Part shown: positions 1-56,428 of the stretch, piece after piece
Numbering within the stretch: position 1 is the first letter of the stretch
Layout of the letters: each line of letters starts with the position of its first letter
Source of the DNA: Janthinobacterium sp. 67
GTDB lineage: Bacteria; Pseudomonadota; Gammaproteobacteria; Burkholderiales; Burkholderiaceae_D
DNA: 64,000 nt
NCBI RefSeq assembly: GCF_002797895.1
Contig: NZ_PGES01000001.1
Span: 5,022,001-5,086,000 of the forward strand
Reading direction: 5' to 3'
Notes under the pieces: generated by a model
The model's database searches: none
Told to the model about the DNA's origin: nothing
What the model saw: the letters and a program-made list of their open reading frames with translations, nothing else
Made by a program: the position numbers and the translations under genes

Positions 1-23
1 GCATCGTTTGTCATAGAAAATAA

Positions 24-1508
24 ATGGATCATAAAACTTCTGGGGATTGGCCACTGCCCTCCGGCGCCTGGTACGTCGATGACGAGGGCGCATGGAGCAT
101 GCAGCGCAGCGCGGACGGCCAGAACGTCTCGCCCTTGGTGAGCGATGCCGATATCGGCAAGCTGATGCTCGCGCGGCGCCTGCCCGCAGCCGCCGGCGCA
201 CCCGTGCGCCAGTTTCCGCCCGAATTCTCGTTCGACCCCGCTTCGGGCGCGGCCTTGCAAGTGCCGCCCGACACTTCCGCCACGCCGCCGTGGGTGCCGC
301 CGTACGGCGCTTATCCCGTCAGCGACGTGCCGCCGGCCGGCCCTGCCGGCTTGCGCCAGGCCAGCGTGCCCCTGAAACTGGCCGACCAGCGCGCGCGCGA
401 AGAGCATGCGCAGGCCGATGCCTCGCTACCCATGCCGCCGCCCGGCGAATACGAATTCTTTTCCGCCCAGTTCGGCACCAGCGCGCCCGCGCTGCTGGCG
501 CTCGACCCGCGCAAGGCCGTCCTGCACGCGTGGCTGCCCGCTTCGAAACGCTGGCTGGCGCTGGACCCCGACTATGGCAGCCTGCTGGCCGAATCGGACC
601 TGGCCCACGGCGCCTGGCGCGCCGAGCTGGTGCCGGAGTTCAATAGCGTGCTGGTCTTGCCGACCAGCCATGGCCTGGCCTGCATCCGTCCCGACGTGCC
701 TTCGCTCACCTACGTGGTCGAGCACGTGGGCGGCGCGCCGTGCGTGGCCAGCCCCGTCTGGTTCCAGAACCGCCTGTGGGCGCCGCTGCGCGACGACGAT
801 GGCCGCATCCGCTTCGTCAACCTTGATGCCGCGCAAAAGCCGGGCAGCGACGTACTGCTCGACGGTGTGGTCGACCTGGGCACCGTCAGCGCGCCCGTGG
901 CCTACAACCGCATGGCCGTGTGGCCCTGCGCCAACGGCCAGCTGCGCTTGCAGCTGCAGCCGGACGGCAACGTGGCTGCGTCGTTTACGCCCTGGCCCGA
1001 AGGGCTGGTGCCGCATTTCGAATTCGGCAGCCCCTACGTGTCGCGCGACGGCGGCCTGTGGCAGCTGTGCTTCGAGCGCAGCCGCGGCACCTATGTCTAC
1101 GTGAAACTGGGCGCGCAGGCCGAACGGGCCGACGCGCTGGCGCCGCGCCTGTGTTCGGGCAGCTTCAATTACCGCTTCGCCACCAAGCTGAAAACGGCGC
1201 CGTGGGAAGAGCCGGAACACGGCGACGATGGCGGCAAGAACCAGGCCGTCATGCCGCTGCTGGAATCGAGCGTTGGCAACAGCGTCTTCGGCGTCAAGTT
1301 CGCCACCAGCGCCGGCCTGTCGAGCGTGCTGCGCTCGAACGAGCGCCTGGCGGCCCAGCTGGTGCAGGACGACGAATTGCGCGAAACCGTGTTCCACACG
1401 TTCGCCGTCAGCGAGCCGTGGCGTGTGCGCCTGTTTGTCCATGAAGGCATGCTGTGGGCGTACCACCCGCTGCTGTCGCGCATCGATGGCTGGGCCTTGC
1501 AGGCATGA
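24..1508 (+). CDS. Unrecognised soluble protein, first gene of tubulin-like operon
   Basis: 494 residues with no signal peptide or membrane segment, so probably cytoplasmic. I recognise no domain. Residues about 60-130 are rich in Pro and Ala. Residues about 145-490 are rich in aromatic and Gly-Asp turns, with short strand-like stretches resembling beta-propeller blades; that fold is a guess. The start has only a weak purine-rich ribosome site, and it lies 23 bases from the window edge, so an upstream gene or promoter may be cut off. Its TGA overlaps the ATG of the next gene, so the two are probably translationally coupled. The context suggests an accessory or adaptor role in the tubulin-like system encoded downstream. 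Confidence 0.75.
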   Translation: MDHKTSGDWPLPSGAWYVDDEGAWSMQRSADGQNVSPLVSDADIGKLMLARRLPAAAGAPVRQFPPEFSFDPASGAALQVPPDTSATPPWVPPYGAYPVSDVPPAGPAGLRQASVPLKLADQRAREEHAQADASLPMPPPGEYEFFSAQFGTSAPALLALDPRKAVLHAWLPASKRWLALDPDYGSLLAESDLAHGAWRAELVPEFNSVLVLPTSHGLACIRPDVPSLTYVVEHVGGAPCVASPVWFQNRLWAPLRDDDGRIRFVNLDAAQKPGSDVLLDGVVDLGTVSAPVAYNRMAVWPCANGQLRLQLQPDGNVAASFTPWPEGLVPHFEFGSPYVSRDGGLWQLCFERSRGTYVYVKLGAQAERADALAPRLCSGSFNYRFATKLKTAPWEEPEHGDDGGKNQAVMPLLESSVGNSVFGVKFATSAGLSSVLRSNERLAAQLVQDDELRETVFHTFAVSEPWRVRLFVHEGMLWAYHPLLSRIDGWALQA

Positions 1509-2974
1509 AAGCGCGCATCCTGATCGCGGCCTGCGCCGCTTTGCTCAGTGCGGCCGGCGTGCAGGCGGCCGGCATCCAGCAAGCCTTTCTCGTGCAAAAC
1601 TCGGGCTGGATGGAGCCGTTTTACACGGATGAACATTCGCAGCTGAAAGCCCTCGTGGGCGCCGTGGCGCAGGCCGCCACCAGCCCGTCCGATAAAGTCT
1701 ACACCCTGGCCTTCAGCCAGAGCAGCGGCAGCAATGTGTCGCCCTCGCTGATCGGGCAGGGGCAGGGCGGCGCCGGCGTGGCGGGCCAGCTGGCGAACTT
1801 GGGCCTGGCGCGCAAGAGCGCCGGCGGCGCGCTGGCCGATACGGATTTCCAGGAAGCCGTCACGAAGACCATCACGGGTCCTTTCCAGTCCGCTTCCGGC
1901 ATCGTGTGGATATTTACGAACAACAAGAACAGCCCGAACAACGACAGCCAGACGGCCGAGCGCAACCGCGACTTTTACCGGCTGCTGCACTTGGAACCGT
2001 CGATCACCAAGACGGTGGTGTTTCCGTTGCGTATGCCCGTGCAGGGCAAGCTGTACAGCGCCAAGGGCTTGATGGTGTATGCGCTCGCCTACGGCCAGCC
2101 GGCGTCCGAGGCGTTGAACCGCATCCTGGCCGAAGGGCGGCTGTCGCAAGTGCTGACGCGCCCGCCCGCGCGCCTGAAACCGGTGGACCAGGATGCCGTG
2201 CGCATCGTGCCGCAGTCCGTCAAGAACAGCGCCAATGTGCACGCCAGCCTGGGCCGCGACGGGCGCACCATCGTGCTCGACGTCGATGCGGCGAATCTGG
2301 TGCCGCAAGTGGTGCTGCAGGCGTCCCTGCAAAACATGTTTTTCCCGTACGTGATCGACAGCGCCAAAGTGCACGCCAGCCTGGCTGGCCGGAACGCGCC
2401 CCTGCACGTTGCGCCGGATCAAATCCGCCAGCTGCAGCCGGGCGCCAGCCAGTCCGTGCAGGTACAGTTTGCGCTGCCGATGGCGCAAATCCCGTCGCCA
2501 TGGTCGGCGCAGGCGATCGCCGCCATGGGCAAGCAGGTGATGCTGCCCATGCAGGCGCAGGTGGGGCTGTCGGAACAGCGGCTGGCGCTCGCGTCCAGCT
2601 TCGGCAAGGATTTGCAGGAACTGTTCCCCGGCGACCCGATCTCAAGCATGTTTACGCCACCCGACAGCGTGCGCGCGTCGCAGGCAACGATACCGCTGCT
2701 GGTGCGCATCCAGTATCCGCTGCTGCCCGTGCTGGTGATACTCGGCGGCGTGCTGGCGCTCGTGCTGGGCTTGCTGGCGCTGGGTTTGCTTGGCACGCGC
2801 GCCACGCGCTACAAGGTGATGGCCGACGGCGTGCAGCGGCAAGTGTTGTTGAAACCATTTAAAAGCGTGCAGATCCGCGACGATGACGGCCGCGACATCG
2901 GCGAACTCAAGCGGGGCCTGGGCAAGCCGGCCGTCGTGCGCGTGGCCGAGGGCCATACCCTGAGCCTGGCCTGA
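1505..2974 (+). CDS. vWA-like exported membrane protein with degenerate MIDAS
   Basis: 489 residues with an N-terminal signal peptide (residues 1 to about 21, ending in AAG after a Leu/Ala core). What follows resembles the first strand of a von Willebrand A domain, but the metal site reads QNSGWM instead of DxSxS. A later segment, IVWIFTNNKNS, resembles the vWA strand that normally ends in DG. The metal-ion site therefore looks lost; this reading comes from motif shape only. Near residue 400-430 is a strong transmembrane segment rich in Leu and Val, followed by a basic cytoplasmic tail of about 55 residues. The start at 1505 overlaps the previous stop codon. A vWA partner fits published comparative genomics of FtsZ/tubulin-like families. 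The alternative is an unrelated periplasmic beta-rich protein. Confidence 0.7.
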   Translation: MKARILIAACAALLSAAGVQAAGIQQAFLVQNSGWMEPFYTDEHSQLKALVGAVAQAATSPSDKVYTLAFSQSSGSNVSPSLIGQGQGGAGVAGQLANLGLARKSAGGALADTDFQEAVTKTITGPFQSASGIVWIFTNNKNSPNNDSQTAERNRDFYRLLHLEPSITKTVVFPLRMPVQGKLYSAKGLMVYALAYGQPASEALNRILAEGRLSQVLTRPPARLKPVDQDAVRIVPQSVKNSANVHASLGRDGRTIVLDVDAANLVPQVVLQASLQNMFFPYVIDSAKVHASLAGRNAPLHVAPDQIRQLQPGASQSVQVQFALPMAQIPSPWSAQAIAAMGKQVMLPMQAQVGLSEQRLALASSFGKDLQELFPGDPISSMFTPPDSVRASQATIPLLVRIQYPLLPVLVILGGVLALVLGLLALGLLGTRATRYKVMADGVQRQVLLKPFKSVQIRDDDGRDIGELKRGLGKPAVVRVAEGHTLSLA

Positions 2975-3018
2975 ACACAGATTCCTTTTTAATTAGTCAA
3001 ATCCACCAGAGGCATACC

Positions 3019-3459
3019 ATGGCGCAAGACACTCCCAAAGACAACGCAGGTTTCACTTTGCCAGCCCCGGCGTCCGCGCCGCCCGCCGCCGATGCACCTG
3101 CTGCCGGCGCAGCCGCCACCACGGCCACGACCGAACCTGCGCCCGCGCTCGACCCCGCCAGCACGACCGACACCTCGTCGCGCGACACCCTGATCGGCGG
3201 CGTCGTGCTGTTGCTGCTGTTCATCGCCTTTTTCTTTGCCAAGAATGCCTATGCGAATGGCCTGGTCGCCAAGCGCGTGCCGCCGAACAAGGCCAATGCC
3301 TCGGGCTGGTGGTTGTTCATCTTCCTGGCCAGCCTGGCGACCGGCGTCGTGCTGGCCGCCGTGAACGCGCATAAATTCCTCGCGCCATTGTTCATGGGAC
3401 CGCTGGTGCTGGTGGGCCTGGTTGCGTTACTGTTGACCTTTACTTCCAGCCGCCGCTAA
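3019..3459 (+). CDS. Small membrane protein with Ala/Pro/Thr-rich N-terminus
   Basis: 146 residues. The first 55 or so are low-complexity Ala, Pro and Thr, probably disordered and cytoplasmic. Three hydrophobic segments follow at roughly residues 57-75, 95-115 and 122-140. There is no signal peptide and no recognised family. The start is supported by AGAGG a few bases upstream. It lies 44 bases after the vWA-like gene and 34 bases before the tubulin-like gene, in one operon. It could be a membrane anchor for the tubulin-like protein; that is inference from position. Confidence 0.7.
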   Translation: MAQDTPKDNAGFTLPAPASAPPAADAPAAGAAATTATTEPAPALDPASTTDTSSRDTLIGGVVLLLLFIAFFFAKNAYANGLVAKRVPPNKANASGWWLFIFLASLATGVVLAAVNAHKFLAPLFMGPLVLVGLVALLLTFTSSRR

Positions 3460-3493
3460 GCACGCCGTAACACGTTTTATCCAAGGAATCACC

Positions 3494-6400
3494 ATGGCAG
3501 AGAACCTGAACCAAACCATCACCGGCGGCGCCAGCGAGCGCAAGCAGGACAAGATCATCGAACTGCGCCCGACCCTGTTCATCGGCATCGGCGGCACGGG
3601 CATGCAGGTGCTGATGCGCGTGCGCCGGCGCGTACTCAACACCCTGTGGGGCGGCGCGGGCAACCGCACGCGCATCGAGGGCTTGGCCGACTTTCCTATC
3701 GCGCAATTCATCCATTTCGACCTCGACAATGGCGCCGTGATCGAAAGCGGCGAGTCGCAGGCGAAGGACTTGCAGTTCGACCAGGTGAAGTTCACGGACG
3801 ATGACAAGGTGGTCGAATCGTTCGACATGGACAAGTACAGCCGTGATGAAGATTCCTTGGAAAAATATCCGCACATCAAGGAATGGCTGCCGTTGACGCC
3901 GCAGCGCATCCGCGAATTGCGTTTCGACATGAGCAGCGGCGCCGGCCAGATCCGCGCCGTATCGCGCCTGTATTTCTTCGACAAGTACGCAAAGATCCGC
4001 GACAAGATCCGTCTGAAATTGAAAGCCCTGAAGGCGGGCCTGTCGCATGAGCGCCAGCTGGCCGAGCTGGGTTTGCGCATGGAAACGAACCGTTTCCGCA
4101 TCGTCATCGTCGGTTCCGTGGCGGGTGGTACGGGTTCCGGCTCCTTCCTCGACATGGGCTTGCTGGCGCGCTGGCTGGCGCGCAGCGAAGTGGGCGCGGC
4201 CGACGTGGAGCTGATGTTGTTCTTGCCGACCGGCTACACCAAGGCCAACAAGGACCGGGTCGAGGCTAACGGCTATGCGGCGCTGATGGAGCTGGAATCG
4301 GCGATGATGGGCAACAAGGGTTATGTTGGCCGCTGGGATGCCTACGACCGTCCGGAACTGACGCGCGAGCCCTACAGCGAGGTTTACCTGATCGATTCGG
4401 GTAACCTTGCCCAGCAGCACACCAAGGATGTCAGCGACGTCTACCACATGGTGGCTGATTCGCTGTTCGAGGATTTCGCCTCGGCCGACTTCGCGCGCGC
4501 CAAGCGCTCGATCGCCGTCAACCAGGCGCAGCACAAAAACTCGCTGTACAACGCGCCCGTGCCGCAAGACCGCTTCGGCGACATGCGGCTGTATTTCTCG
4601 AAGCGCTTTTCCTCGTTCGGCATGGCCGTGCTCGACACGCGCCAGGAAGCGGCGCGCGACGAGCGGGCCCACCGCTGGGCCGGCGCCATGCTGCAAGCGT
4701 TCTTTGGCGTGGGCGGCACGGATGCGGGCGCCAACCGGGCCACGGATACGCAGCGCGATAACTTCCTCGCCGCCAATATGTTCCTGAAGGGCACGCCGTT
4801 CAGCGATTTCCCCGAGTTTTCCGACAAGAGCATCGAACTGAAGCGCTCCAGCGGCGACTTCATCGATTTCCGCGTCGTCGACGAATTGCTGGAAGACCGC
4901 CACGGCCACTTGCTGGCCGGCGTGGAAAACCGCGTCAACACGCGCATCAACGATATCCGCACGGGCTTTGACCGCAGCGAATGGCCGGCGCAAGTGCGCG
5001 ATGCCATGAAGCACCTGGAACGCGACGCCGTGCGCGACCAGGATTCCACGGCCGACACGACGGAAGACCGCATCAGCAAGCGCCGCCGCGAAGTGCTGGA
5101 AGACGTCAAGAAAGTCGTGCGCGACCAGCTGTATGGCTACCTGGACAACAAGGAATTCGGCGGCCTCGAATACGTGCTGTCGCTGGTGGAACAGATCAAG
5201 GATCGCATCGAGGCGCCGGGCAGCGGACTGACGGCGCAGATCGGCAACAATGCCGAGCGCTACCGCGAAATCAAGGAAGCCGTGCGTTCGCGCGAATACG
5301 AGCGCCTGCTGAACAACCTGGAGCAGACGCGCAGCACCTTCGGCTTCCTCAGCAACGGCGAAAAGCAGGCGGGCGTGGTGATGGACCATTTACGCACGGA
5401 AATGGCGAATGCGCTGAAATTCCATCTGCGCGCCAAGGCGGCGGACGAGTCCGTGATTTTGCTGGGCGAACTGTCGCGCTGGCTGGGCAATCGTGTCGGC
5501 GTCGACGCGCAAGGCCGCGCGCAGTGGAATGGCCTGGTGGGCGAGCTGCAAACGGGCCGCGAAGGCGTGCTGGCCATGCTGGCCGAATTGAAAACGGCGA
5601 ACACGATTTTGCAAAAGGACCTGGACAAGGAACACGCGACCCTGATCGTCATTCCCGTCACGGAAAAAGACATCGCGCTGCCATCGGCGGCCACCTTGCG
5701 CCAGTGGGCCGATGAAGCGTTCAAGGACATGGGCGGCTCGAAAGCGCTGTTCCCCATGCTGGGCGAACCGGCGCAGCGAGGCTTGATCCTGGCCAAAGTC
5801 ACGCGCATGGCCGAAAACATGATCGCCACGACCAGCCTCGTGGAAGGGGCGACGAGCACGCCCGACCCGCTGTTCGAAGCGCTCGAACAGATGGAGGTGT
5901 CCGAACGCCTGGACCGTTTCCGCAAGCTGCTGGCCTGCTCGATGCCGTGGATCGACGCCAATATGGCGGGCGACTTCACGGTCGTGTCGGACCAGTTCAA
6001 GTGCGTGATCGGCGTGGCCAACGCGGCCGCCTTCAAGGCGAAGTTCGGCGCCGAGCTCGAATCGTGCATGCCGACCCAGGTGGGCATCACGGTGAGCCAG
6101 CTGGAAATCGTCGAAACGGGCATCCGCGGTCGCGCCGTCTGCTATTGCGAGCTGGCCGGCGTGCCGATGACGGTGCTGCGCGGCCTGGAAGGCTGGCGCA
6201 CCAGTTACCGCAAGGAAGGCGACAACGACAAGGCGCCGACCCACACGCATATCGACCCGACGCAATTCACGCACCCGATCGCACCGAACACGGACGAGAT
6301 GAAGCGCCTGGCGGAAGACTTCGGCGAATTCCTGCAAGCGATCATGCTGGGCGTGCTGACGCGCCACACGGGCCGCGTCGTGCCGCCGGGCCAGTACCAG

Positions 6401-7189
6401 TTTGCCGTCGAGCCGGGCGACTTGCGCCGTATCGGCAACGAGCGGGCCATCCGCCAGAACGGCATGCCCGCCTCGTACCAGAAAAATATCGCCCTGCGCA
6501 TCGAGGAAAAATTGACGGCGCTTGACGCCGTGCAGACGGCCGCCATGGCGGCGCTGGCAAAATACTATGAACGCACCGTGTATGCGCCCAAGCTGGTGGC
6601 GCAGGCCGATGGTTCGCAGCTGCCCTACGTCGGTTTTGGCAGCGCCATTTCCGCCGAAGTGGGTGCGCGCCTGCGCGAGTCGGCGCGCCGCAAGGGCATG
6701 GCCAGCGACGAGCTCGACCGCACGGTGCAAACCCTGCTGGGCCGCCTGAAGGAATGGGCGAACGTCATCGGCGACTCCGACAGCGATGCCTATGACTGGG
6801 AAGTGCGCGAGCCGGAAGCGGACGGCCAGCCGCGCCTGAAGTACGCGATCAAGGCGGAAATGCTGGAAGCGGGGCGCCTCGAGCAATTGCTGCGCCCGGC
6901 CGGCGCGGCCGTTGCCCCGGCGGCGGCCGTGTTCGGCATGGCGCAGCCACCGCTGGGCGGCATGCCGCCGCTGGTGGAATACCAGTATTTCCTGGGCATT
7001 AATGGCCAGCAGCAGGGACCGTTTACGGCCCAGCAGATCGTGCAGTACGTGCAGGCGGGACAGGTCGCACCGGCCACCACCAAGGTGTGGCGCGCCGGCT
7101 TGCCGGCCTGGGCCGACTTGGCCCAGTTCCCCGAACTGGCGCCCTTGTTCCTCAGCGCGCCGCCACCGTTGATGCCGCCGCCCCTGTGA
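3494..7189 (+). CDS. Tubulin/FtsZ-like protein (Tubulin_2 type) with C-terminal GYF_2 domain
   Basis: 1231 residues, far longer than FtsZ (about 380) or tubulin (about 450). Near the N-terminus is a nucleotide-binding loop, GIGGTG (residues 31-36). At residues 210-216 is AGGTGSG, which matches the tubulin/FtsZ signature (A/S/G)GGTG(S/A/T)G that contacts GTP phosphates. The long middle part is charged and mostly helical. Residues about 1160-1218 form a GYF_2-type domain (YFLGINGQQQGPF start, WRAGLPAW centre), thought to bind proline-rich peptides. The next gene encodes a long proline-rich segment that could be its ligand. No membrane segments are seen. The start at 3494 is preceded by AAGGAA. 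GTPase activity and polymerisation are inferred from the signature only. Confidence 0.85.
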   Translation: MAENLNQTITGGASERKQDKIIELRPTLFIGIGGTGMQVLMRVRRRVLNTLWGGAGNRTRIEGLADFPIAQFIHFDLDNGAVIESGESQAKDLQFDQVKFTDDDKVVESFDMDKYSRDEDSLEKYPHIKEWLPLTPQRIRELRFDMSSGAGQIRAVSRLYFFDKYAKIRDKIRLKLKALKAGLSHERQLAELGLRMETNRFRIVIVGSVAGGTGSGSFLDMGLLARWLARSEVGAADVELMLFLPTGYTKANKDRVEANGYAALMELESAMMGNKGYVGRWDAYDRPELTREPYSEVYLIDSGNLAQQHTKDVSDVYHMVADSLFEDFASADFARAKRSIAVNQAQHKNSLYNAPVPQDRFGDMRLYFSKRFSSFGMAVLDTRQEAARDERAHRWAGAMLQAFFGVGGTDAGANRATDTQRDNFLAANMFLKGTPFSDFPEFSDKSIELKRSSGDFIDFRVVDELLEDRHGHLLAGVENRVNTRINDIRTGFDRSEWPAQVRDAMKHLERDAVRDQDSTADTTEDRISKRRREVLEDVKKVVRDQLYGYLDNKEFGGLEYVLSLVEQIKDRIEAPGSGLTAQIGNNAERYREIKEAVRSREYERLLNNLEQTRSTFGFLSNGEKQAGVVMDHLRTEMANALKFHLRAKAADESVILLGELSRWLGNRVGVDAQGRAQWNGLVGELQTGREGVLAMLAELKTANTILQKDLDKEHATLIVIPVTEKDIALPSAATLRQWADEAFKDMGGSKALFPMLGEPAQRGLILAKVTRMAENMIATTSLVEGATSTPDPLFEALEQMEVSERLDRFRKLLACSMPWIDANMAGDFTVVSDQFKCVIGVANAAAFKAKFGAELESCMPTQVGITVSQLEIVETGIRGRAVCYCELAGVPMTVLRGLEGWRTSYRKEGDNDKAPTHTHIDPTQFTHPIAPNTDEMKRLAEDFGEFLQAIMLGVLTRHTGRVVPPGQYQFAVEPGDLRRIGNERAIRQNGMPASYQKNIALRIEEKLTALDAVQTAAMAALAKYYERTVYAPKLVAQADGSQLPYVGFGSAISAEVGARLRESARRKGMASDELDRTVQTLLGRLKEWANVIGDSDSDAYDWEVREPEADGQPRLKYAIKAEMLEAGRLEQLLRPAGAAVAPAAAVFGMAQPPLGGMPPLVEYQYFLGINGQQQGPFTAQQIVQYVQAGQVAPATTKVWRAGLPAWADLAQFPELAPLFLSAPPPLMPPPL

Positions 7190-7222
7190 ACGCTGGAATG
7201 ACGCTGGAATGAAGGAATAGTT

Positions 7223-8437
7223 TTGGATATTTGTAACAAATGCAAGACGGGCCTGTGGACCGTTGTCAGCCATTGCCCGTACTGCGGTCACGTGGTGGCG
7301 GGTGCTGCCCAGCCAGCCGCGGCCGTGCCGCCGCCGCTGCCTGTGCCAGAGCCTTTGCCAGTGCCAGCACCGCCGCCGGTAGCGCCCAAGCCGCCGCCCG
7401 TGCCGGTGGCGCCTGCGCCTGCGCCGAAGGCGGTACCGAAACCGGCTGTCGTTCCACCGCCAGCGCCGCCGAAGCCGGTCCAGCCGCAAGCCGTGCCCAA
7501 GCCCGCGCCCGTGCCGCCATCGGTGCCACCCGTGCCATCACCGCCGCGCAAGTGGCTGCGCTGGCTGGGCGGCATCGCCGTGCTGGCGGCCGTCATCGTC
7601 TACATGAATGGCAAGCCGGGCGGCAAGAATGAATCGGCCTGCAATGACGCCATCGATAGCGGCCTCAAGCTGGTAGCGGATGGCAGCCTGGACGGCGCCC
7701 GCCAGAAGCTGGCGACGGCGAAGAATGTATGCACGGGCAAGTCCAGCGCGAAGGCCGACGATTTGCAGGCGGCCATCGGCAAGGCCGGCGCCGCGTCTAG
7801 CGGCTGCCAGCGCAGTGTGCGCGCCATCGAGCGCGCGATCGACGGCCATCAATTGCAGAGCGCCGCCAAGGGCATTGCCGCGCTCGACATCGATTGCGCG
7901 GGCGCATCGAGCGTCGATTCCTTGCGCAAGCAGCTGGCGCGCCAGCAGGCGGCAGCCGCGTCCGTGCTGGTGGGCGTGCGCCAGGCGCTCGACGGCAAGG
8001 ATGCGACGGCGGCACAAAATGGCATCGCCAGGCTGGAAGCGATCGACCGCGAAGCGGTGGAATTGCCGCAGTTGAAGGCGGACGTGCGGGCGCTGTCGGC
8101 GCCTGCCCCTGTTTCTGTCCAAGCCCCGGCGCCGGTATCAATGCCGGCACAGCAGGAACCGGCGCCCGCGCGCGCGGTCGAACGCTCAGCGCTGGCCGAA
8201 CGCCGTCCGCCGGAAACGGCGCCCGTCGATAGCGGCGCGGCCATGCGCAACGAGATGGCGCAATCGTTCCTGCGCGATGCCGAGCGTTCTTTGCTGGAAG
8301 GCAAATTCGATGCGGCCAAGACGTATCTGGAAAGCGCGCGCCGCGTCGATCCGGGCAATGCGCGCATCGACAATTTGTCGCGCCGCATCCGCGAGCGCGA
8401 ACGGCAAGTGCTGCAGACGGAAACAACGATCAATTAG
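7223..8437 (+). CDS. Zinc-ribbon, proline-rich, single-pass membrane protein
   Basis: 404 residues from a TTG start, chosen because GAAGGAA sits just upstream and because the next codons encode an N-terminal zinc ribbon (Cys4, Cys7, Cys18, Cys21). Residues about 30-108 are a Pro/Ala/Val repeat. One transmembrane helix follows at about 111-130. The C-terminal part (about 140-404) is Ala-rich and helical, with a TPR-like helical repeat at the very end. The expected topology is cytoplasmic zinc ribbon and proline-rich linker, then a periplasmic helical part. The proline stretch is a plausible ligand for the GYF_2 domain of the preceding tubulin-like protein. The rare TTG start may hold expression below that of its neighbours. 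Confidence 0.75.
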   Translation: MDICNKCKTGLWTVVSHCPYCGHVVAGAAQPAAAVPPPLPVPEPLPVPAPPPVAPKPPPVPVAPAPAPKAVPKPAVVPPPAPPKPVQPQAVPKPAPVPPSVPPVPSPPRKWLRWLGGIAVLAAVIVYMNGKPGGKNESACNDAIDSGLKLVADGSLDGARQKLATAKNVCTGKSSAKADDLQAAIGKAGAASSGCQRSVRAIERAIDGHQLQSAAKGIAALDIDCAGASSVDSLRKQLARQQAAAASVLVGVRQALDGKDATAAQNGIARLEAIDREAVELPQLKADVRALSAPAPVSVQAPAPVSMPAQQEPAPARAVERSALAERRPPETAPVDSGAAMRNEMAQSFLRDAERSLLEGKFDAAKTYLESARRVDPGNARIDNLSRRIRERERQVLQTETTIN

Positions 8438-8454
8438 CAATCTGGGGAGTCACC

Positions 8455-9225
8455 ATGCTGAACCACACTACCATGCGCGCTGCCGCTGCGCTGACCATCG
8501 CGGCCATGCTGGCCGGCTGCGCCACGGCGCCGATGAACCCGAACGGCGTACGCCAGGATAGTTCCTATCCGCAAGGCGGAACCCAGGCGGCCACGGATGA
8601 AGACCCGTGCAGCGTGGGCACCTCGGCCGCTGCCGGCGCGGCCGTGGGAGCGCTGCTGGGGGCATTGGCGGGAGGCAAGAATGGCGCGCTGAAGGGCGCG
8701 GCCATCGGCGGCGGCCTGGCGGCGGCCGGTTGCCTGGCCATCAATGTCAATTCGCGCCAGACCAAGACGGCGGCACAGGCCGACCGCGACTATATCCGCA
8801 CACGGGGCGCGCTGCCGCGCGAGCCGCAAGTGGTGTCGTACACGCCGCAGCTGAGCGCCTCGACCGTCAAGCGCGGCCAGCCGTTCAAGGTCAATTCGGT
8901 GGTGGAACTGGTCAACGGCAGCGCACAAAGCGTCAACGACGTGCGCGAAGAGCTGGTCGTGCTCGATCCGCAAGGCCAGCCGTTCAAGTCCGGCTCGAAA
9001 GCGCTGGCCAGCAACAACAAGTCGGGCGGGCGCTTTGAAAACTCGTTCCAGCTGACCTTTCCGGAAGGCGTGTCGCAAGGCGTGTATGGCGTCAGGACGA
9101 ATCTGTACGTGAACGGCAAGCTGGCCGCCACGCGCGACTTGCGTACGCAGCTGGTGATGCTGGATGTGGATACGCGCGTTGACGCGCAGCTGGCGCTGCG
9201 CAGATCGCCGTATGCAAACGGGTAG
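8455..9225 (+). CDS. Glycine-zipper lipoprotein
   Basis: 256 residues. The signal peptide ends in the lipobox LAGC, so the mature protein should be a lipoprotein beginning at Cys22. Residues about 57-100 are a glycine-zipper segment (repeated GxxxG and GAxxGA), as in outer-membrane lipoproteins with OmpA-like glycine zippers. The C-terminal 110 residues look like an Ig-like beta sandwich. The start has GGGGAG upstream; an internal ATG at 8473 is a less likely alternative. It is the last gene of the tubulin-like operon, 17 bases after the zinc-ribbon gene. Its TAG stop is formed by the left end of the repeat at 9222-9321. The likely role is the envelope end of the system. Confidence 0.75.
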   Translation: MLNHTTMRAAAALTIAAMLAGCATAPMNPNGVRQDSSYPQGGTQAATDEDPCSVGTSAAAGAAVGALLGALAGGKNGALKGAAIGGGLAAAGCLAINVNSRQTKTAAQADRDYIRTRGALPREPQVVSYTPQLSASTVKRGQPFKVNSVVELVNGSAQSVNDVREELVVLDPQGQPFKSGSKALASNNKSGGRFENSFQLTFPEGVSQGVYGVRTNLYVNGKLAATRDLRTQLVMLDVDTRVDAQLALRRSPYANG

Positions 9226-9321
9226 GTCGGATTAGCGGGGTAAAGCCCCGCGTAATCCGACAACACCACTAACGCCAACAATGTTGTCGGATTACGGCCC
9301 CTTGGGCCTAATCCGACCTAC
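9222..9321. repeat. Two-hairpin REP/BIME-like repeat between convergent genes
   Basis: The outer 14 bases form a perfect inverted repeat (9222-9235 GTAGGTCGGATTAG with 9308-9321). Inside are two separate hairpins that share the arms GTCGGATTA and TAATCCGAC: one at 9226-9261 with a CGGGG/CCCCG core and one at 9286-9317 with a GGCCC/GGGCC core. The TAG of the outer arm supplies the stop codon of the + strand lipoprotein gene. The mirror-image arm supplies the TAG of trmL on the minus strand. It probably also works as a bidirectional transcription barrier, though there is no T run. Confidence 0.85.
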
Positions 9322-9788
9322 GCGCCGCCCTGGTAGCCATGCTGGCGCCACGCTTCGTAGACGACCACGGCCACCGTATTCGACAGATTCAAACTGCGGT
9401 TGTCCGGGCGCATCGGCAGGCGGATGCGTTGTTCGGCGGGAAAGCCGTCGCGCAGGGCCGGTTCCAAGCCCTTTGTTTCCGAGCCGAATACGAATACGTC
9501 GCCCGGCAGGAAGGCCACGTCGCCGAACGGACGCGAGCCGCGCGTCGTCATGGCGAACATGCGGGACGGGTCGGGCTGGGTGTCGGCCAGGAACGCGTCC
9601 CAATTCTTGTGCACCTTCATGTTGGCGTAATCGTGGTAATCGAGGCCGGCGCGCTTCATCTTGGCATCGTCGAGCGGAAAGCCCAGCGGTTCGACCAGGT
9701 GCAGCTGCGCGCCCGTATTCGCGCACAGGCGGATGACGTTGCCCGTATTGGGCGGGATTTCAGGTTCTACCAAAACAACGTGAAACAA
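9318..9788 (-). CDS. trmL: tRNA (cytidine(34)-2'-O)-methyltransferase TrmL
   Basis: 156 residues, the usual length of this SPOUT-family enzyme. It 2'-O-methylates the wobble base (position 34) of tRNA-Leu isoacceptors using SAM. Visible family features are the N-terminal [10 protein letters not shown] motif, the central [11 protein letters not shown] loop and the C-terminal [11 protein letters not shown] stretch, which together form the knotted SAM site. Its stop lies in the repeat shared with the convergent lipoprotein gene. It is the second minus-strand gene after comF, with a 24-base gap, and may be cotranscribed with it. Confidence 0.95.
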
Positions 9789-13237: not shown

Positions 13238-14836
13238 ATGAGTACTAGCACGAGCACCTTGGACCACGCCGGTCACGATCACGACCATGCCCACGACCAC
13301 CCGACTGGCTACCGCCGCTGGCTGTTTGCCACCAACCACAAGGATATCGGTACCCTGTACCTGTGGTTCTCGTTCATCATGCTGCTGTCGGGCGGCGTGC
13401 TGGCCCTGATGATACGCACGGAACTGTTTCACCCAGGCCTGCAATTTTTCCACCCAGAATTTTTCAATCAGCTGACCACGATGCACGGCCTGGTGATGGT
13501 GTTTGGCGCCATCATGCCGGCCTTCGTCGGCTACGCCAACTGGATGATCCCGCTGCAAGTGGGCGCGTCCGACATGGCGTTTGCCCGCATGAACAACTTC
13601 TCGTTCTGGTTGCTGCCACCGGCCGCGCTGCTGCTGGCCACGTCCTTCCTCGTGCCGGGCGGCGCCACGGCTGCCGGCTGGACCCTGTATGCGCCGCTGT
13701 CGACGCAGATGGGGCCCGGCATGGACATGGCGATTTTCGCCATGCACCTGATGGGCGCCTCGTCCATCATGGGTTCGATCAACATCATCGTCACCATCCT
13801 GAACATGCGCGCACCCGGCATGACCCTGATGAAAATGCCGATGTTCTGCTGGACCTGGCTCATTACCGCCTATCTGCTGATCGCCGTCATGCCCGTGCTG
13901 GCCGGCGCCATCACCATGACCCTGACGGACCGCCATTTCGGCACCTCGTTCTTTAACGCGGCAGGCGGCGGCGACCCCGTCATGTACCAGCACATCTTCT
14001 GGTTCTTCGGCCACCCCGAGGTCTACATCATGATTCTGCCGGCCTTCGGCATCGTCTCGCAGATCCTGCCCGCGTTTGCCCGCAAGCCTTTGTTCGGCTA
14101 CGCCTCGATGGTGTACGCCACGGCCTCGATCGCGATCCTGTCCTTCATCGTCTGGGCGCACCACATGTTTACCACCGGCATGCCGGTGACGAGCCAGCTG
14201 TTCTTCATGTACGCGACCATGCTGATCGCCGTGCCGACAGGCGTGAAAGTGTTCAACTGGATCGCCACGATGTGGAAGGGTTCCATGACGTTCGAGACGC
14301 CGATGCTGTTCTCGGTCGGCTTCATCTTCGTGTTCACCATGGGCGGCTTCACGGGCCTGATCCTGGCCGTGACGCCGATCGACATCCAGCTGCAGGATAC
14401 CTATTACGTGGTGGCGCACTTCCACTACGTGCTGGTGGCCGGTTCGCTGTTCGCCCTGTTCGCCGGCTTCTACTACTGGTCGCCGAAATGGACGGGCCAC
14501 ATGTACAACGAGACGCGCGGCAAGATCCACTTCTGGCTGTCCCTGATCACGTTCAACGTGACCTTCTTCCCCATGCACTTCCTGGGTCTGGCCGGCATGC
14601 CGCGCCGCTACGCCGACTATCCGGCGCAGTTCACGGACTTCAACATGATCGCCTCGATCGGCGGCTTCGGTTTCGGCCTGATGCAGGTGTACTTCCTGTT
14701 CTTCGTGGTCTTGCCGACCATCCGCGGCGGCAAGGCTGCGCCGGCGAAGCCATGGGAAGGCGCGGAAGGCCTGGAATGGACCGTGCCGAGCCCGGCGCCT
14801 TTCCACACGTTTGAAACGCCGCCGACCGTGAAATGA
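13238..14836 (+). CDS. ctaD: Cytochrome c oxidase subunit I
   Basis: 532 residues with twelve expected transmembrane helices. It is the catalytic heme-copper subunit that reduces oxygen and pumps protons. Visible signatures are the CuB/Tyr motif [10 protein letters not shown] (with the cross-linked His and Tyr) and AHFHYVLV carrying the heme a3 and heme a ligands. The first 22 residues are unusually His/Asp-rich ([12 protein letters not shown]), a possible metal-binding tail. The ribosome site AGGAG precedes the ATG. The gap to coxB is 13 bases. Confidence 0.97.
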
Positions 14837-14843
14837 GGTATCC

Positions 14844-14867
14844 CGGGCCGGCGTGTTGCGCGGCCCG
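14844..14867 (+). other. GC-rich stem-loop between ctaD and the small assembly gene
   Basis: CGGGCCG (14844-14850) and CGGCCCG (14861-14867) form a 7-bp stem with a 10-base loop. No T run follows, so it is not a classical terminator. It may stabilise the upstream mRNA or reduce expression of the downstream assembly genes relative to the structural subunit. Confidence 0.45.
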
Positions 14868-14887
14868 TCTTGCATAAAGTGCCTGTC

Positions 14888-14995
14888 ATGACCGAACGTA
14901 AAAAACCGAACAACCTGCGTACCGGGCTGATACTGGCCGCCCTGGCGGCCTTCTTCTTCCTGTCCGTGTTCGCCAAACGGCTGTGGCTGTCGTGA
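14888..14995 (+). CDS. Cytochrome oxidase small assembly protein (35 residues)
   Basis: A 35-codon ORF: a short basic N-terminus (MTERKKPNN), one transmembrane helix (about residues 12-28) and a basic end. Tiny single-helix proteins in this position, between subunit I and CtaG, are annotated in betaproteobacteria as cytochrome oxidase small assembly proteins. Its TGA overlaps the GTG start of ctaG (sequence GTGA), a sign that both are translated and coupled. The function is not established and is inferred from position. Confidence 0.75.
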   Translation: MTERKKPNNLRTGLILAALAAFFFLSVFAKRLWLS

Positions 14996-15564
14996 CGACG
15001 CCCGCGCAACAGGAAACACGCGGTCTGAACCGCAAGATGCTGGGCAAGCTGCTCGTCATTGCCGTGCTGATGTTCGGCTTTGGCTATGCCCTGATTCCCG
15101 TCTACAAGCAAATTTGCGAAGTGATGGGCATCAACGTGCTGACGCAAAAAGATGGCACGGTGGCTTACGACAACAATACGCAGGTCGACACGACGCGCAG
15201 CATCACCGTCGAGTTCGACGGCAATGCGCAGGGGCCTTGGCGCTTCCGCCCGACCGTGTCGAGCATGCAGGTGCATCCGGGCGAACTGGTGACCGTCATG
15301 TATGAAGTGGTCAACACGCAAAACCGCGTCGTCAATGCGCAAGCCATCCCCAGCTATGCGCCGCAAAGCGCCACGCCGCATTTCAAGAAGGTCGAGTGCT
15401 TCTGCTTCAAGCAGCAGACCCTGAAGGCCAAGGAAGCGCGGCAGATGCCGGTGGTGTTCTTTCTCGACCCGGCCCTGCCGAAAGAGGTGAAGACCATCAC
15501 CCTGTCGTACACGTTTTTCGAGATTGCCGGTCTGAGCCAGGCTCAGACGCCGGCCGTCCAATAG
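14992..15564 (+). CDS. ctaG: Cytochrome c oxidase assembly protein CtaG (Cox11)
   Basis: 190 residues. One N-terminal transmembrane helix (about 18-37) is followed by a periplasmic Ig-like copper-binding domain. The family's copper motif is visible as CFCFKQQ near residue 135. Cox11 delivers copper to the CuB site of subunit I. The GTG at 14992 was chosen because it overlaps the previous stop; an in-frame GTG at 14983 would add three residues. It sits in the cox operon before the DUF2970 and ctaE genes. Confidence 0.94.
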   Translation: MTTPAQQETRGLNRKMLGKLLVIAVLMFGFGYALIPVYKQICEVMGINVLTQKDGTVAYDNNTQVDTTRSITVEFDGNAQGPWRFRPTVSSMQVHPGELVTVMYEVVNTQNRVVNAQAIPSYAPQSATPHFKKVECFCFKQQTLKAKEARQMPVVFFLDPALPKEVKTITLSYTFFEIAGLSQAQTPAVQ

Positions 15565-15573
15565 GAGAGTGAC

Positions 15574-15780
15574 ATGGGCGAATCCAAGCAGCCTGAAAAA
15601 GCGTCGTTCCTGTACTCGCTGCGAGCCGTCGTATGGTCGTTTACAGGCTTGCGCCGCAAGAGCGATTTCGACACGGATTCGGCCAAGCTCAATCCCGTGC
15701 ACATCGTCATCGCCGGTTTCCTGGTGGTGGCTTGCCTGATCGGCATCCTGATTTCAATTGTTAAATTCGTCGTTTTATAA
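15574..15780 (+). CDS. DUF2970 small membrane protein
   Basis: 68 residues with a single C-terminal transmembrane helix (about 45-67). The central FTGLRRKSDFDTD segment is typical of DUF2970, a family found almost only in betaproteobacterial cox operons between ctaG and ctaE. Its function is unknown; an assembly or accessory-subunit role is inferred from the operon. A ribosome site (AGGAG) ends 6 bases before the ATG. Confidence 0.85.
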   Translation: MGESKQPEKASFLYSLRAVVWSFTGLRRKSDFDTDSAKLNPVHIVIAGFLVVACLIGILISIVKFVVL

Positions 15781-55996: not shown

Positions 55997-56358
55997 GTGA
56001 AGCAGGCCAGACAGTCGCTGGCCGGCGCAGCAATGCGCTGGCGGGAGGAAGGTCCGGACTCCATAGAGCGGGGTGACGGTTAACGGCCGTCCGCTGAAAG
56101 CCTACTCGACGTACTTGTACGGAGAGGGGGTATAAGGCGAGGAATAGGGCCACAGAGACGAGCGTATTAAGTTACGGTGAAACGCGGTAACCTCCACCTG
56201 GTGCAATTTCAAATAGGCACGCGATGATGCTGCTCGCGGAGCGTGCGGGTAGAAAGCTTGAGCGCCCGAGTAATCTGGCGCCTAGAGGAATGACTGTCAT
56301 AGCGCCAACCTGCAAGGGAAGGCGCCGTAACAAAATCCGGCCTATCGGCCTGCTTCAC
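55997..56358 (+). ncRNA. rnpB: RNase P RNA (bacterial class A)
   Basis: About 362 bases. The ends pair as helix P1 (GUGAAGCAGGCC at 55997-56008 with GGCCUGCUUCAC at 56347-56358). Conserved blocks are the GGAGGAAGGUCCGGACUCC region (about 56044-56062), GAGGAAUGACUGUCAUAG near 56283 (P4 and J4/5 part) and the late CAAAAUCCGGCCUAUCGG part. The RNA is the catalytic part of RNase P, which trims tRNA 5' ends. Ends were assigned from the P1 pairing, so a few bases are uncertain. Confidence 0.95.
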
Positions 56359-56428
56359 TTGAATTCCCGCTTCCTGGCTTGCCAGGGAGTATCTCGGCCG
56401 CGGCAGCGTTGACTGCCGCGCGCCAATC

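Follow-up and report, generated by a model that had tools for sequence, protein, structure and literature searches.

A conserved six-gene FtsZl1 cassette in Janthinobacterium that may tie a tubulin-like polymer to the cell envelope

We analyzed a window of 64,000 bases (5,022,001-5,086,000 of a 6.2 Mb contig) from Janthinobacterium, in which six co-directional genes on the + strand at 24-9225, here called g1 to g6, form a cassette around g4, a gene for a 1231-residue tubulin-like protein of the FtsZl1 (Tubulin_2) family. The gene arrangement exceeds chance, and the cassette is co-inherited as one block. From gene order, domains, topology signals, co-inheritance and predicted folds, all of which were observed, we infer GTP hydrolysis, polymerization, contacts and function, and we propose that the cassette may couple a cytoplasmic tubulin polymer to the cell envelope, a reading to which we give an even chance of being right. 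The six genes are as follows.

24..1508, + strand: g1, 494 amino acids (aa), soluble, no Pfam family
1505..2974, + strand: g2, 489 aa; hydrophobic leader, periplasmic vWA domain, immunoglobulin (Ig)-like domain, one transmembrane (TM) helix and a small cytoplasmic beta domain
3019..3459, + strand: g3, a three-TM protein
3494..7189, + strand: g4, 1231 aa; Tubulin_2 (FtsZl1) and a C-terminal GYF_2 domain
7223..8437, + strand: g5, TTG start, 404 aa; zinc ribbon, proline-rich linker, TM helix and a long Cys-containing periplasmic part
8455..9225, + strand: g6, a lipoprotein (lipobox Cys22) with a glycine zipper

The open reading frames (ORFs) bore out the initial annotation, which had described six same-strand genes with short gaps or overlaps at 24-9225, with one correction: g2 starts at the in-frame ATG at 1505, whereas the ORF list had used a GTG at 1454. 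This ATG opens a hydrophobic leader and creates a 4-base overlap with the g1 stop, after which the genes are separated by gaps of 44, 34, 33 and 17 bases.

Genes g1 to g4 stood in this order in all 23 loci from named genomes, and g5 and g6 followed g4 in 19/19 loci on uncut contigs (those of L003, L005, L008 and L009 were cut), so that the six-gene order proposed in the initial annotation is indeed conserved in relatives. It spans six named genera, namely, Janthinobacterium, Rhodoferax, Duganella, Rubrivivax, Azohydromonas and Paraburkholderia. Nine more distant loci, with g4 38-64% identical, all kept g1 to g4; four of them had all six genes, four had five (g6 not found) and one had four. Upstream, the flank was the same in 15/15 named Janthinobacterium loci; downstream, it was the same in the 11/11 that reached that far. 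Neither flank was found at loci from other genera or at L051 and L054, two loci placed in the same genus by their kinship label that carry a divergent version of the cassette (g4 only about 42% identical). This comparison drew on four flank queries, a fifth (bioC) being set aside because its translation contained stops. When flanking ORFs were compared among 16 loci, flanks were common only within L038-L042 together with L051 and L054, and within L015 and L016, with the exception of one cluster that looked ABC transporter-like by eye. Since the flanks differ while the six genes are kept, the six genes, rather than their neighbors, are the shared unit.

Among 145 genomes of the family, g2 was present in 32 and Tubulin_2 above the cut-off in 31, and in all 31 of the latter the two lay on one contig. 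The 32nd g2 came from G809, an 80% complete genome in 790 contigs; in G894 the tubulin match was split over two contigs, one of them bearing g2, and G826 had a below-cut-off Tubulin_2 match without g2. Relatives of g4 occurred in 38 of the 40 genomes of the genus, 32 of them at an identity of at least 72% and 6 at about 42-48%. At higher ranks, where the genome samples overlap, Tubulin_2 was found in 10/399 genomes of the order (own genome included; 8 of the 10 with the g2-g3-g4 neighborhood), in 5/369 of the class (4 over the cut-off) and in 8/398 of the phylum (7 over the cut-off). One canonical FtsZ gene lies elsewhere in the genome, and g4 is thus unlikely to be the division tubulin.

Some loci in these genomes had peculiarities of their own. 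In another genome of the genus (G420:C47:5378-9033) the g4 match lay in two pieces in different frames, possibly reflecting an assembly error or a broken gene. A further member of the genus (G424) carried a second, different Tubulin_2 near a caspase-like gene (L052:5893-13292), adjoined by a gene for a paired-Cys, TM, tetratricopeptide repeat (TPR) protein and then by a MORN-repeat gene; by eye, a second Tubulin_2 in L053 had a similar neighborhood. In G264, the surroundings of a distant Tubulin_2 (L037:617-9851) included a caspase-like and a CHAT-domain gene as well as two small single-TM proteins rich in Cys.

The features of g4 on which the reading depends are these.

3575..4690, + strand: Tubulin_2 domain, residues 28-399
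3584..3601, + strand: GTP-binding loop GIGGTG (T1-like), conserved motif
4121..4141, + strand: GTP-binding loop AGGTGSG (T4-like), conserved motif
4562..4591, + strand: candidate T7 loop with conserved Asp363 (Asp in 14 of the 16 rows shown; low model confidence)
4718..5950, + strand: about residues 409-819, a long and mainly helical stretch that the model puts inside the C-terminal tubulin domain
5996..6163, + strand: residues 835-890, in which the model places strands S8-S10 and helix H10 of the C-terminal tubulin domain
6986..7138, + strand: GYF_2 domain, residues 1165-1215

The tubulin fold that had been suspected in g4 was recovered both by profile (Tubulin_2, PF13809; Pfam E value of 1.2e-60, 206.1 bits against a cut-off of 27) and by structure alignment, in which the g4 model aligned over the whole FtsZ, tubulin or CetZ chain. 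Among 119 g4 relatives longer than 1150 aa, GxGGTG was present in 117 and AGGTG[SA]G in all. The model places the C-terminal part beyond the helical region, so that g4 would have the complete tubulin fold, with some 400 helical residues interposed. Like FtsZ, CetZ, TubZ and tubulin, g4 has GTP-binding loops and a predicted fold extending over almost the whole chain; unlike them, it has about 400 helical residues interrupting the C-terminal domain in the model, a poorly kept T7 loop, and extra C-terminal and GYF domains.

Operons joining FtsZl1 to vWA genes were described by Makarova and Koonin in 2010, whose main text reports that T6-H7 and the C-terminal tubulin domain were not found (PMC2875224). 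The cassette shares with the operons of that text an FtsZ-like N-terminal domain, a long coiled-coil or helical middle, a vWA neighbor, several membrane proteins and a canonical FtsZ encoded separately in the same genome. The OmpA, P-loop GTPase and kinase partners that are described there as frequent but not required were, in contrast, not found in the six proteins by Pfam; the link to FtsZ/tubulin-vWA-OmpA families drawn in the initial annotation is right, the family being FtsZl1. The cassette also differs from those operons in its fixed six-gene order, in its altered vWA metal motif, which those authors report as intact in most cases, in a GYF_2 domain on the tubulin (GYF is absent from the main text of PMC2875224) and in a g4 model that predicts the C-terminal tubulin domain that those authors could not find. 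In the literature searched, which left most subscription journals uncovered, we found no report of the six-gene set or of an interrupted Tubulin_2 C-terminal domain.

The predicted envelope components begin with g2, whose features are listed here.

1562..2167, + strand: vWA domain, residues 20-221
1595..1612, + strand: altered metal ion-dependent adhesion site (MIDAS) motif QNSGWM, replacing the canonical DxSxS
2195..2719, + strand: Ig-like or chaperone-like beta domain, residues 231-405
2723..2797, + strand: TM helix, residues 407-431, followed by 58 C-terminal residues with a predicted cytoplasmic location

In its AlphaFold model, g2 combines periplasmic vWA and Ig-like domains with a single TM helix and a small domain in the cytoplasm, in agreement with its initial description as a vWA-like membrane protein. 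It was the fold that settled the vWA assignment; Foldseek's top matches were other, mostly beta-rich proteins, the window protein had no significant Pfam match, and the g2 profile run against PDB sequences returned no vWA and one unrelated match (E value of 0.82). A known Pfam family was rejected for g2, VWA_2 being matched by 2/40 aligned members with a best E value of 0.068. Canonical vWA domains bind metal via DxSxS (PMC2875224, main text). Among the 120 g2 relatives listed, the best of 734, LVQNSGWM was present in 115 and LIQNSGWM in 4, the remaining one being a fragment without that end; TNN[KR]NSP occurred in all 120, and the canonical DxSxS was found in none within the first 200 residues. 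A contrasting case is L050, where the vWA gene next to a distant Tubulin_2 retains DRSGS. The strict conservation of the altered site suggests that a function has been kept, which judging from the motifs is probably metal independent.

No family match was obtained for g1 in the Pfam search. Some distant relatives have a zinc ribbon at the N terminus, the cysteines of which are lost in the window copy, and repeated W/G motifs lead us to suspect a beta-propeller in g1. The g3 protein carries a short GF[TSAK][LV]P motif near its N terminus in 25/28 sequences.

A possible connection between g4 and the membrane is offered by its GYF domain together with g5, in which three features could be placed.

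7232..7285, + strand: zinc ribbon CNKC...CPYC
7313..7546, + strand: proline-rich linker
7556..7606, + strand: single TM helix, residues 112-128 by eye, below the hydrophobicity threshold of our script, with Lys/Arg on its N-terminal side

In g4 relatives, PPPL preceded the GYF domain in 88 of the 104 sequences in which a simple pattern could locate the domain (104/119), and PP[LMS] lay within the last 8 residues in 115/119; a distant lineage has IPDP as the g4 tail instead, in the rows shown. Proline made up 43% of the g5 linker in two Janthinobacterium copies and 8-26% in eight others (10/27 sequences were measured, the window copy being among the 17 in which the zinc-ribbon/TM pattern failed). 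PPPPGV, which resembles known GYF ligands (PPG-type motif), occurs in the g5 linker at L039, L040 and L042, all of them distant relatives. The PPPL segments of g4 itself and the g5 linker are both candidate partners of the GYF domain. We do not claim homology of g5 with the Cys-rich single-TM TPR protein of L052, for which hhalign gave a probability of 15% over a TPR-like stretch only, and we regard the similarity as a likeness of layout. The C-terminal region of g6 matched MG2 in 3/15 members. In three loci in which g6 was undetected, a different small lipoprotein-like gene directly followed g5 (L038:4966-5361, L039:12625-13014 and L042:5110-5418).

The layout suggested initially, with a cytoplasmic tubulin, inner-membrane parts and an outer-membrane lipoprotein, agrees with the predicted leader, lipobox and TM positions; the GYF domain, the altered vWA metal site and, in the model, the interrupted C-terminal tubulin domain go beyond that annotation. 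In the coupling that we propose, g4 would bind GTP and form a polymer beneath the inner membrane from which its long helical insertion would project, and its GYF domain would dock on a proline-rich peptide, either the g5 linker or the PPPL segments of g4 itself. Both g5 (zinc ribbon, linker, TM helix and periplasmic helices) and g2 (vWA and Ig-like domains in the periplasm, TM helix and cytoplasmic tail) would relay the polymer's state across the inner membrane, their cytoplasmic parts providing the link to the periplasmic domains. A further partner in the membrane would be g3, and the lipoprotein g6 would make up the end at the outer membrane. Such an assembly would serve as a switchable anchor or reshape the envelope locally. 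A more specific version, suggested by the model, is possible but in our view somewhat improbable: FtsZl1 proteins would be complete tubulins with a helical arm between H9 and S8 that polymerize like FtsZ and display one arm per subunit, and here the GYF domain flanked by PPPL peptides would link subunits or grip a zinc-ribbon membrane anchor, giving an armed filament tied across the envelope to an outer-membrane lipoprotein.

Several observations weigh against such coupling. By the positive-inside rule, the N terminus of g3 would lie outside, leaving little of g3 in the cytoplasm; among the nine distant loci, g6 was undetected in five and g5 in one; proline in the g5 linker drops to 8% in L035; and PPG-type GYF ligands were rare among g5 relatives and were not seen in the g5 of the window. 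The g4 model is of middling confidence overall (predicted template modeling score, 0.57), and its T7 region scores below 50 in the predicted local distance difference test. FtsZ T7 carries two acidic residues, just one of which is evident in g4, and this weakness of T7 makes GTP hydrolysis by g4 doubtful. Sequence profiles gave no support for a C-terminal tubulin domain in g4. In hhalign, g4 (43 rows; effective number of sequences, 2.8) aligned to 23 FtsZ proteins at the T4 loop with a probability of 2.5% and over one spurious stretch at 0.2%. With sliding windows, the FtsZ T7-H9 piece matched best near the g4 T4 loop, not at the proposed T7, and the S8-S10 piece matched best on the same 11 columns (model residues 801-811) with a probability of about 1%; these columns lie just before the proposed S8, opposite the FtsZ S9-S10 part, so that the register was not as expected. 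The profile tests were nevertheless too weak to refute the interrupted C-terminal domain, which is a prediction of the structure model.

The six proteins might instead form a transmembrane signaling or transport device, as a reviewer of Makarova and Koonin proposed (PMC2875224, main text), with the vWA and Ig-like domains sensing a periplasmic ligand and g4 serving as a non-filament GTP switch or scaffold. The altered yet conserved vWA metal site would fit a conserved ligand site and the T7 loop of g4 is weak, but the model aligns the whole tubulin chain, all characterized members of the superfamily form filaments, as the 2010 authors argue in that text, and Pfam detected no kinase, transporter or response-regulator domain in the six proteins; we consider this explanation unlikely. 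It also appears quite improbable that the cassette is a conflict (anti-phage) system akin to the tubulin-containing, GTPase-centered systems of Kaur et al. (2020), even though tubulin and vWA proteins are placed in predicted conflict systems there and a tubulin-domain protein is encoded beside a vWA protein with TM helices in both cases (PMC7159879). The GAP1-type GTPase and FNIII components of those systems were not found here, and the tubulin-bearing GAP1-N2 systems are, according to PMC7159879, restricted to Firmicutes and Actinobacteria. The patchy occurrence of Tubulin_2 in the order (10/399 genomes), flanks that differ between genera and in the two divergent same-genus loci, and the caspase-like and CHAT genes near other Tubulin_2 loci would suit a conflict system. 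Near-universal presence in the genus (38/40 genomes) with the same upstream neighbor in all 15 named Janthinobacterium loci would not; moreover, none of the six proteins was matched by PADLOC (2023 library, incomplete) at an E value of <= 0.1, and Pfam revealed no TRAFAC GTPase core component, GTPase partner, HSP70 or known effector domain among them.

We further compared the cassette with gliding-type adhesion and motility complexes such as the Myxococcus Glt/Agl machinery. The nearest solved relative of the g4 GYF domain by sequence is that of an adventurous gliding motility protein (PDB 7z3c), the Myxococcus protein AglX, also called GltJ. The GYF domain also weakly matched the GltJ model at the same place (E value of 9e-6, far below the cut-off; NCBIfam gliding_GltJ, 25 bits against a cut-off of 450), and zinc ribbon, linker and TM parts, which GltJ has too, recur in g5, so that here such parts are spread over two proteins. 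However, peptide-binding GYF domains are widespread, the match is confined to the GYF stretch, the operon differs, and no tubulin domain is known in AglX/GltJ. The remaining Glt and Agl models gave no match to the six proteins, among which the tubulin is the only GTPase domain, and we therefore regard a gliding complex as very unlikely.

Outside the cassette, a cytidylyltransferase-like gene (L002:11415-11897) ends 126 bases upstream of g1, and a SpoU-type methylase gene lies downstream of g6 on the opposite strand; in another Janthinobacterium locus (L006), ∼1.8 kb of extra DNA (about 13763-15588) separates g6 from the methylase gene. No promoter-like sites were found in either stretch scanned. 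Window positions 1-9400 contained 10 terminator-like sites against 8.6 expected, none of them at the operon end, and gave no match in an Rfam search. A bacterial RNase P RNA (class A) is located at 55999-56360 of the window.

For the FtsZl1 family, the model suggests that the tubulin part missing in 2010 may lie about 400 residues further on in g4. For Janthinobacterium, which is a cultured genus, the operon encodes proteins predicted to have one end on either side of the inner membrane, namely, g5 with its zinc ribbon and proline-rich linker and g2 with its short tail in the cytoplasm, through which a tubulin polymer inside the cell may be coupled to the envelope.

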